DNA of 64,000 nt from Clostridiales bacterium (GTDB lineage: Bacteria > Bacillota > Clostridia > Saccharofermentanales > Saccharofermentanaceae). Shown piece after piece: positions 46,859 to 62,318 of this stretch. The stretch lies in NCBI GenBank assembly GCA_017527865.1, contig JAFXPN010000026.1, positions 1 through 64,000 on the forward strand, in the 5' to 3' direction. A program made the position numbers and the translations under genes. A model generated the notes under the pieces. That model was given only the letters and a program-made list of their open reading frames with translations. It had not been told where the DNA came from and did not search any database. Position 1 is the first letter of the stretch. Every line of letters begins with the position of its first letter.

Positions 46859-47320
46859 CTACCTCTTATCCCGCGTCAGGACCATGCATTCCGTTGAATC
46901 CGTAAATCCCAGACTCTCGTACAGCGGTCTTCCCAATTCGGTTGCATCGAGGCTGATCTCCGTGGCGCCTGCTTTCCAGGATTCATCTATAAGCAGCTCA
47001 ACCATCCTGCGCGCTATCCCCCGACGGCGGTATTCACTCCTCGTATAGACATTCATGAGGTGCGCCCTCTTCCCCGTGGGGTGTCCAAATGTCGGCATTA
47101 TCCGGATAAAGCTCATCGATGCGCAGCCGACGGCCTCGTCTCCATCCGTGGCGAGAACAGTCAAATGATCCCCGTTCAGGAAGTAATCGCGGCTCTCGTT
47201 TATTATCTGATCAGTAAATACATAGTCTTCCGGCAGACCGTTCACGACCTTGAGCATCTCAAGGCGGCTGCTCATCAAAGCTTCAATATCGTCTTTGGTA
47301 GCAATCCTTATATCGATCAT
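46859..47320 (-). CDS. GNAT family N-acetyltransferase
   Basis: A 153-residue GNAT protein. The acetyl-CoA binding motif A reads NVYTRSEYRRRGIARRMVELL, with the R-x-x-G-I-A loop, and motif B contains LYESLGF near the C-terminus. The substrate is unknown. No ribosome site is visible; an extended -10 (TGGTAACAT) ends 6 nt before the ATG, so the mRNA may be leaderless. Confidence 0.85.
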   Translation of the reverse strand: MIDIRIATKDDIEALMSSRLEMLKVVNGLPEDYVFTDQIINESRDYFLNGDHLTVLATDGDEAVGCASMSFIRIMPTFGHPTGKRAHLMNVYTRSEYRRRGIARRMVELLIDESWKAGATEISLDATELGRPLYESLGFTDSTECMVLTRDKR

Positions 47321-47326
47321 TTAACA

Positions 47327-47335
47327 ATGTTACCA
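47327..47335 (-). promoter_or_regulatory. extended -10 promoter of the GNAT gene
   Basis: On the minus strand TGGTAACAT ends exactly 6 nt before the GNAT start codon, the same geometry as at 43515, 33969 and 58226. Confidence 0.4.
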
Positions 47336-47394
47336 CGCATGCGAGCTCTCGAAAAGGATGATAACAGGATGATAATTTATACATCAGATCTGCG

Positions 47395-47475
47395 TTAGGC
47401 ATTACCGGGCTCATTACCAGGTGCATTATCGGCCAAGGCTTCAAATAAAGCTTTCACGCGTTTAACAATATCCAT
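47395..47475 (-). CDS. possible 26-residue peptide
   Basis: A 26-codon frame (MDIVKRVKALFEALADN, then a Pro/Gly/Asn-rich tail) with a very strong GGAGGTGAG 4 nt before the ATG. A 6-bp hairpin TCCTGC/GCAGGA (47485-47500) covers part of the ribosome site and may restrain translation. The N-terminal half would be an amphipathic helix. It lies just after the terminator repeat of the VapBC cassette. No family is recognised. Confidence 0.45.
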   Translation of the reverse strand: MDIVKRVKALFEALADNAPGNEPGNA

Positions 47476-47534
47476 ACTCTCACCTCCTGCAAGAGCAGGA
47501 TAAACAACGCGATGAACCAAAAAGAGTACATCTG

Positions 47535-47564
47535 CAACATAAAAGACCGGCAAGGCCGGCCTTC
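47535..47564 (-). repeat. 30-bp direct repeat, copy 1, forming a terminator
   Basis: Identical to 48319-48348. On the minus strand it folds as AGGCCGGC-ctt-GCCGGTCT followed by TTTTATG, a rho-independent terminator for the VapBC genes. The two copies bracket the toxin-antitoxin cassette exactly. Confidence 0.85.
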
Positions 47565-47603
47565 ACAGGGCTCTTCGGAAGCTTAGGAAATCCGGGGATA
47601 TGA

Positions 47604-48005
47604 TCAGCGCATCCAATCGACTACCTTAAGTCCGTCTACTCTCTGGAATTCTCTCGTGTTATTCGTCACCAGCACACAACCTCGCGAAAGAGCATGTGCC
47701 GCGATCAGCATATCAAAAGGTCCGATGGGCTCTCCTTTACTCTCGAGATCTGCTCTGATCTTTCCATAATCGTTGGCGGCATTCACATCAAAATCAAGAA
47801 TCTCGAAGTTCGCAAGCATAAGTGCTAAAGCGAATCTGTTCCGTTCGACTTCTTTGCTTTTCTCTACCCCATGAACCAGTTCTGCATATGTAAGAGAAGA
47901 TATGCATACATCAGACGGATCCATATCACTCAGCCTCTTAAGAAGCTTGTCTGATCTCTTCCTAATGCAGTTTATGAGGACATTGGTATCCAACATATAC
48001 CTCAT
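47604..48005 (-). CDS. vapC: VapC-like PIN-domain toxin
   Basis: A 133-residue PIN-domain RNase. The start MRYMLDTNVLI gives the first catalytic Asp. Glu lies in YAELVHG, and further acidic residues in PFDMLIAAHAL and VTNNTREFQRV. The ATG at 48005 overlaps the vapB stop by 4 nt. VapC toxins cleave RNA (often tRNA or rRNA) and are held inactive by VapB. The target is not predictable here. Confidence 0.9.
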   Translation of the reverse strand: MRYMLDTNVLINCIRKRSDKLLKRLSDMDPSDVCISSLTYAELVHGVEKSKEVERNRFALALMLANFEILDFDVNAANDYGKIRADLESKGEPIGPFDMLIAAHALSRGCVLVTNNTREFQRVDGLKVVDWMR

Positions 48006-48232
48006 AAGGATTCTCGCTCCTGAGAACCCTGATCGGCTCTCCCGTCCTTCATATAATCTTCGGAGAACATGTCGATAGCAGCCATAAAGGTCTTCCACTT
48101 CTCGTCCTTCGGAATCAACATAACAATATCTCCAATCTTATTAACCATAACTTCTTCCGTACAGAATCTACACTCTTTGGGTAAACGAACCGCCTGACTT
48201 CTGCCGTTCTCAAAGATCTTGGCTGTCATCAT
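48002..48232 (-). CDS. vapB: VapB-like antitoxin (AbrB/SpoVT type)
   Basis: A 76-residue protein. The start is one of two adjacent ATGs (48232 or 48229) after GGTGAGG. The N-terminal MTAKIFENGRSQAVRLPKE is the AbrB-like swapped-hairpin DNA-binding domain of VapB/MazE-type antitoxins. The C-terminus would wrap the toxin. It overlaps vapC by ATGA and probably represses its own promoter. Confidence 0.9.
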   Translation of the reverse strand: MMTAKIFENGRSQAVRLPKECRFCTEEVMVNKIGDIVMLIPKDEKWKTFMAAIDMFSEDYMKDGRADQGSQERESL

Positions 48233-48318
48233 TGCCCTCACCTGCCTTTCACCAATAGTATATATCGCGATATATATCAGTTCAAGATAGCAGGATATAG
48301 TTATCGATATATTGTCAA

Positions 48319-48348
48319 CAACATAAAAGACCGGCAAGGCCGGCCTTC
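48319..48348 (-). repeat. 30-bp direct repeat, copy 2, forming a terminator
   Basis: The same 30 bp as 47535-47564. Here the hairpin serves as terminator of the double-glycine peptide gene, whose stop codon is 28 nt upstream on the minus strand. Confidence 0.85.
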
Positions 48349-48376: not shown

Positions 48377-48619
48377 TTACTGAAGTGCATTAGGGTCAAT
48401 GAACGGATTGCCACCGAAGCCGTTACCGACATATCCGCCCGGCTTATCATCAGGAAATCCCAGATTCTGTCCCTGCTCGGTTTGCATGAATTCCTCAAGC
48501 TTTTTCTTGAGCTCCGCCATCTGTTCTTCCGGTGTCATGTTATTGGGATCCAAACCGGAATCACCACCTGAAACTTTCTCAAGCTGATTATTATCTATCT
48601 CATAATTATTGTTCTTCAT
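48377..48619 (-). CDS. small peptide with double-glycine (bacteriocin-type) leader
   Basis: An 80-residue product. The ATG at 48619 follows GAGAAGGAA; the in-frame ATG at 48637 overlaps that ribosome site. The leader MKNNNYEIDNNQLEKVSGG is a textbook double-glycine leader of class II bacteriocins and RiPP-like precursors, cut after GG by a peptidase-containing ABC exporter. The 61-residue core starts with DSGLDPNNM, is acidic, lacks cysteine, and has a Gly/Asn/Pro-rich end (GGYVGNGFGGNPF). No processing exporter or modification enzyme is nearby. It has a terminator directly downstream. Confidence 0.7.
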   Translation of the reverse strand: MKNNNYEIDNNQLEKVSGGDSGLDPNNMTPEEQMAELKKKLEEFMQTEQGQNLGFPDDKPGGYVGNGFGGNPFIDPNALQ

Positions 48620-48707
48620 TGTTATTTCCTTCTCCAATGGTTTGTATCAACAAGCTCATTTAACCATCTGCGAGAAGGAGAACCAATGATTGATATTCAT
48701 CCCTTTT

Positions 48708-48721
48708 GTCGCTTAACCGAC
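48708..48721. promoter_or_regulatory. palindrome-like GTCGCTTAACCGAC upstream of a double-glycine peptide gene
   Basis: Lies 89 nt upstream of the peptide start at 48619, in the intergenic region shared with the divergent 48821 gene. It matches the motif GTYGCTTAnSCRAC also seen at 13723 and 52885. Confidence 0.35.
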
Positions 48722-48820
48722 AGACTCATGCACCAGTGTTGATTAACCCGGATTTATTAATACTACATGAACCAATAATCGCCCATCCCTCCCCCTACAA
48801 TAACATCGGGAGGATATATC

Positions 48821-62130: not shown

Positions 62131-62318
62131 ATAGCCCCGTATTTCCTTACAATGTTCCAACTTTTACCGATTATCAGGAACTCCATCAGGGAATAGCACC
62201 GTATTTCCTTACAATGTTCCAACTTTTACCGATTATCAGGAACTCCATCAGGAAATTGAACTGTTATTCCTGATACTGTTCTATGTTTTTCAGATAACTA
62301 GGAACACTATCAGGAACT
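62131..62318. repeat. 62-bp tandem repeat, two near-identical copies and one degenerate copy
   Basis: This stretch (62002-62392) has no credible gene. Copies at 62131-62192 and 62193-62254 are nearly identical (atag-c/a-ccGTATTTCCTTACAATGTTCC at the start; TTATCAGGAACTCCATCAGG at the end). A third diverged copy runs to about 62318. Before it, 62005-62060 contains short GCTTCGCTTCGG-like repeats. Confidence 0.8.

Follow-up and report, generated by a model that had tools for sequence, protein, structure and literature searches.

A vapBC toxin-antitoxin pair bracketed by an exact 30-bp terminator-like repeat: probable insertion with target duplication behind a small peptide gene

In a 64,000-nucleotide stretch of a Clostridiales bacterium contig (the window) a vapBC operon lies between two exact copies of a 30-bp direct repeat, and we consider it likely that the operon was inserted as a segment of about 754 bp 3' of a small peptide gene, duplicating a 30-bp target that corresponds to the predicted terminator of that gene. 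The repeat is unique to this site, only vapB and vapC lie between its copies, as the initial annotation had already reported, no transposase gene is present between them and no terminal inverted repeats were found at the cassette ends, save a palindrome within the repeat itself. Related vapBC loci show an excess of brackets of this kind with differing repeats, and for one of them an empty site is found among relatives. From this pattern we infer a common mode of origin for the window locus and its bracketed relatives.

As the predicted products fall into the VapC PIN family and the VapB family and the two genes form an overlapping operon, the locus can be assigned to the type II VapBC toxin-antitoxin systems (Table 1). 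The antitoxin gene comes first and the overlap is formed by ATGA; in sequence, gene order and overlap the pair is like VapBC of the tRNA(fMet)-endonuclease type and nothing notable sets it apart. The palindrome ATATATCGCGATATAT and the promoter-like site that it overlaps recur at further members of this vapBC family, and the palindrome is a putative operator of vapBC. The upstream peptide gene has no Pfam or NCBIfam match. Downstream of repeat copy 1 a short frame (47395-47472) with a strong ribosome-binding site could encode a 26-residue peptide, for which no relatives were found.

Table 1. Predicted features at the vapBC locus of the window
Feature	Position	Strand	Remarks
Repeat copy 1	47535..47564	-	terminator-like hairpin, 3' of vapC
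Putatively inserted cassette between the repeats	47565..48318	-	754 bp
vapC, PIN-domain toxin, tRNA(fMet)-endonuclease type	47604..48005	-	Pfam PF01850 5.5e-25; NCBIfam NF047863 171.7 bits (cut-off 140); PDB relatives 3tnd, 6ifc and others
vapB antitoxin	48002..48232	-	NCBIfam NF047862 118.5 bits (cut-off 100); PDB 3zvk_E 2.3e-13
Promoter-like site of vapBC	48257..48285	-	overlaps palindrome ATATATCGCGATATAT (48260-48275)
Repeat copy 2	48319..48348	-	terminator-like hairpin, 3' of the GG-leader peptide gene
Small peptide gene, upstream	48377..48619	-	double-glycine-type leader (QLEKVSGG); owner of repeat copy 2

The identity of the 30 bp at 47535 and 48319, noted in the initial annotation, proved exact, with the copies 784 bp apart from start to start. 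In 20 order-1 Markov simulations of the window the longest exact repeat measured 14-17 bp, against the 30 bp observed. Allowing up to three mismatches, a 24-bp core of the repeat occurs at two places in the 2,151,500-base (2.15-Mb) genome to which the window belongs, and these are the two copies; across 98 relatives it has a single match with three mismatches, and the exact core is absent from both genome_contigs and viral_contigs. A terminator common throughout the genome, which the initial annotation had named as the finding that would speak against insertion, is thereby ruled out, and other cassettes at the same repeat, which it had suggested looking for, were not found.

On the minus strand both copies form a 10-bp stem with a three-base loop and fold better than their dinucleotide shuffles (z = -2.5 and -3.8), while the fold of the plus strand is unremarkable (z about -1). 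A terminator pattern scan accepted the copy at 48319 and missed the copy at 47535 for want of one T following the stem, which makes for a weak U-tract. The earlier description of each copy as a minus-strand terminator thus stands as far as folding is concerned, and for its function a terminator with a short and weak U-tract is a good guess. The hairpin also contains a perfect 12-bp palindrome, AAGGCCGGCCTT.

We looked at related vapBC loci using as measure the longest exact direct repeat between the two flanks of each. The set comprised 80 named VapC relatives, the best out of at least 561 related stretches, together with 9 loci from the genus and the window. L025 and L063 represent a single locus and entered the count once, and L023/L084 and L028/L097, whose contigs agree in length, were merged as same-contig pairs after the count, giving 84 distinct loci. 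L031 was left out of the flank-repeat comparison, L020-L022, L024, L026 and L027 were not entered as they repeat the window or listed loci, and L077, with a 138-bp repeat at a contig end that includes vapC sequence, was set aside.

Exact direct-repeat brackets of at least 16 bp were found at 7 of the 84 distinct vapBC loci, compared with 3 of 612 among the other gene units of those loci. With 300-bp flanks, and before merging to 84, this gene-unit control gave 7/86 for vapBC against 3/612 (one-sided Fisher test, 3e-5), L075 and L117 having been dropped (vapC less than 230 bp from the locus start), which took the vapBC count from 9/88 to 7/86. At the same threshold a control using shifted pseudo-cassettes gave 8/87 for vapBC and 6/766 for pseudo-cassettes in the same loci (11/771 less 5 matches in N-runs), and when flanks of mismatched loci were paired 3 of 7656 pairs reached at least 17 bp, all three of them homologous. 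The other 77 of the 84 loci carry no such bracket, therefore most insertions left none or lost it.

Two of the three matches in the gene-unit control are themselves small gene units that adjoin vapBC and are bracketed by a duplicated terminator (L052) or a duplicated gene end (L083). At L052 (3180-3232 and 4515-4568) the duplicated terminator has about 40 identical bp and encloses two small genes immediately upstream of vapBC, which is the arrangement of the window with another cassette. At L083 (3114-3166 and 4639-4691) 53 bp from the 3' end of a GNAT gene are duplicated around a serine-hydrolase gene. A terminator-like 45-bp repeat at L091 (1975-2019 and 4077-4121) surrounds a sigma-factor-like gene pair together with a relBE-like pair, adjacent to vapBC.

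The repeat is a different one at each bracketed vapBC locus, from 16 to about 170 bp in length, and most of the repeats are gene ends. The longest, at L063/L025 (64 bp exact, about 170 bp at 93%), takes in the 3' end of a MazF-like gene, so named from its reading frame, and the end of vapC; inclusion of the end of vapC, seen also at L077, is what a tandem duplication would give. At L080 (45 bp exact, 58 bp when mismatches are allowed) a convergent LysR-type gene has its 3' end duplicated, and an extra copy of the repeat is fused to the end of an SGNH-hydrolase-like gene; LysR was assigned by NCBIfam search and the neighbour names at this locus come in part from reading the sequence. The window follows with its 30 bp exact and then L121, with 25 bp exact that form the first 25 nt of a glycosyltransferase gene, including the ATGA where the preceding gene ends. 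L054 has a repeat of 20 bp exact, L122 one of 18 bp exact (70 bp at 81%) from the 3' end of a XerC/XerD-like recombinase gene (NCBIfam search) and L062 one of 16 bp exact (39 bp at 79%) from the 3' end of a convergent lipoprotein-like gene. The inserted stretch measures 719-930 bp across the seven bracketed loci, its distance to vapB and vapC varies, and no shared motif was found at the insert ends among the seven.

The repeat is thus target DNA and not module DNA, being the predicted terminator of the upstream gene in the window and parts of neighbour genes in the relatives. The initial annotation had proposed that the cassette was inserted at a terminator and duplicated it. Insertion with duplication agrees with the recurrent vapBC brackets and with the empty site found for L121, but no empty site was found for the window and the terminator does not appear to be a special site, because other vapBC loci carry different duplicated sequences, mostly gene ends. 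On these comparisons the terminator would be the target by its position and not a recognised site.

The empty site of L121 is seen in two relatives (G147 and G157, loci L139 and L140), which keep both flanking glycosyltransferase genes without vapBC and in which the two genes overlap by 11 nt. Their flanking genes share 57-59% and 52% identity with those of L121, and the second flanking gene has other surroundings in five other relatives. An overlapping gene pair takes an insert without loss only if the target is partly duplicated, and L121 shows such a duplication; vapBC therefore appears to have entered the gene overlap, with the duplication saving both genes.

For L122 an empty relative is also available (G206, L177), with the recombinase gene and its terminator without vapBC. 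The downstream copy of L122 is identical to L177 over about 80 bp, and the upstream copy, terminator included, has about 75% similarity to L177 and 81% to the downstream copy of its own locus. At L122, compared with L177, the 3' end of the recombinase gene and the terminator are present in a diverged second copy that adjoins vapBC. Because the upstream copy is diverged and the downstream copy matches the empty locus perfectly, L122 seems better explained by recombination with a diverged copy than by a new duplication of the target, which counts against a single mechanism. No orthologue for an empty site was found for L080 or L062 in 8 and 5 other genus genomes respectively.

Strains with one repeat copy and no vapBC, which the initial annotation had proposed as a check, were not found among the 85 genus genomes. 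The flank at 47320-47610 has no useful match in the 84 other genus genomes (one 39-bp match, in G020), the peptide gene is present in 3 of 99 genomes including its own, and the adjoining GNAT gene is present in many genomes but has other surroundings in all 24 of the relatives read; by flanks, peptide gene and GNAT gene no relative is syntenic with the window locus. As no empty site was found, the insertion reading for the window rests on the exact and unique repeat and on the pattern within the family.

How such an insertion may have come about can be outlined as follows. An incoming vapBC segment would have been built into a break or a stalled fork behind the peptide gene, through illegitimate insertion at a staggered break where fill-in from both sides copied the 30 bp. 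The peptide gene would retain its terminator and vapBC would acquire one, so that neither transcription unit runs on, and with nothing broken the insertion would survive. Selection may retain only those insertions that spare the flanking genes, and addiction to the toxin, which makes loss of vapBC costly, would help its retention.

The same exact bracket would be produced if circular or linear DNA with vapBC beside a copy of the same terminator, for example that of a sister strain, had entered the resident terminator by a single crossover. The diverged copies at L122 (81%) and L063/L025 (93%) suit a related but different donor, and donors with such a neighbourhood exist, given that in G030 a related peptide gene (52% identity) has vapB immediately after its terminator. 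The G030 terminator is, however, a different sequence with another junction and no synteny with the window beyond it, and the 98 relatives, genome_contigs and viral_contigs contain no donor with the same 30 bp. At L121 the donor would have had to carry the initial 25 nt of the same glycosyltransferase gene, and a crossover shifts the origin of the bracket elsewhere. We therefore regard it as unlikely.

We find it more improbable still that vapBC was already in place when the terminator was copied by gene conversion or template switching at the palindromic hairpin, in which case the repeat would be uninformative on insertion. Palindromes such as AAGGCCGGCCTT, held perfectly in the hairpin, are the kind of sequence that stalls replication. 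Against later copying, the genome has just two copies and both sit exactly at the ends of one operon, and most other brackets in the vapBC family do not form hairpins. A toxin-antitoxin pair enclosed by short exact direct repeats that hold a hairpin also resembles the modules of a site-specific recombinase (integron attC, Xer/pdif module or similar), but with no third copy in the genome, a differing repeat at each related locus and no site common to different loci, the idea that the 30 bp is an attachment site and vapBC its cassette hardly holds, and attC and dif cassettes were rejected.

The closest relatives of the window VapB (96-97%) are found in three genomes, G012, G039 and G030, the last with one cut by a contig end. 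Homology of the window vapBC DNA to the G012 and G039 loci, the nearest at 87%, covers 47612-48292, and these loci have flanks unlike those of the window and are without the 30-bp repeat. Since the homology reaches neither repeat copy and both relatives lack the 30 bp, the repeat did not travel with vapBC from G012 or G039. Within the genus VapC is patchy (14 of 85 genomes). Known phages and plasmids were rejected as carriers of vapBC, with no phage match, one weak vapC match among plasmids (Cereibacter) and one VapC of 47% identity in viral_contigs.

The G030 fragment (G030:C37:1-457, L039), in which vapB directly follows the peptide-gene terminator, is 99.3% identical in vapB over 141 bp to G012 and G039. 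Two of the three peptide loci known in 99 genomes adjoin vapBC, and for those of G030 and the window this may reflect either repeated insertion or joint transfer. Upstream of the window peptide gene a 52-bp stretch (48671-48722) matches at 81% the DNA that precedes the peptide gene in G030, and in G039 a GG-leader peptide gene is preceded by a similar stretch; it is possibly a regulatory element shared by these GG-leader peptides.

On insertion some restriction-modification (RM) systems leave duplications of the target that are long, variable and of about 100 bp in order of size, which a review of RM and toxin-antitoxin systems credits to Nobusato et al. 2000 and Furuta et al. 2010 (PMC3874152). 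There too an addiction-type module is inserted into the chromosome with a long, variable and direct target duplication and without a transposase, whereas here the module is a type II toxin-antitoxin pair, the duplications are mostly 20-60 bp and the duplicated piece in the window is a terminator. In Microcystis aeruginosa PCC 7806 a ParE/ParD-like module downstream of MaOC1 lies between two identical 152-bp direct repeats, the first of which includes an inverted repeat and begins 14 bp past the stop codon of the preceding gene (PMC7935541). This is likewise a toxin-antitoxin pair enclosed by identical direct repeats, with the first one just past the end of an upstream gene, and it differs from the window in repeat length, toxin family and its cyanobacterial host. 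Target duplication is not proposed for the module in the accessible text of that paper, from which 'horizontal' and 'transpos' are absent. Beyond these two papers the arrangement was not found in the openly licensed literature, nor was a count of brackets over the vapBC family combined with an empty site.

The window locus also resembles a phage moron, a unit that brings its own promoter and terminator and lies between two genes which are adjacent in relatives; the window locus differs in being chromosomal and in having a visible target duplication. The term moron is used in PMC3918226.

We regard the window locus as a further member of the known kind of insertion with long target duplication, and its value as that of an ordinary kind which yields useful systematic evidence. 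The movement of chromosomal toxin-antitoxin pairs without a mobile element of their own is poorly understood, and the brackets suggest that selfish gene pairs may enter chromosomes with no need of a transposase, a short piece of the target being copied in the process. About one in twelve loci of the vapBC family holds a datable scar in which the target is still readable, making insertion countable, comparable with empty sites and testable in the laboratory, and the window adds a case in which the duplicated target can be a terminator that insulates both units at once. More tentatively, and with less confidence than we place in the insertion at the window itself, gut and rumen Clostridia might acquire vapBC and other units of one to four genes by a general transposase-free route, consisting of insertion at gene boundaries with target duplication of 20-60 bp, where the duplication restores gene ends, starts or terminators and makes such insertions nearly cost-free; its addictiveness would make vapBC the most frequent passenger. 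Elsewhere in the window (62137-62252) an exact 54-bp repeat occurs with a spacing of 62 bp.
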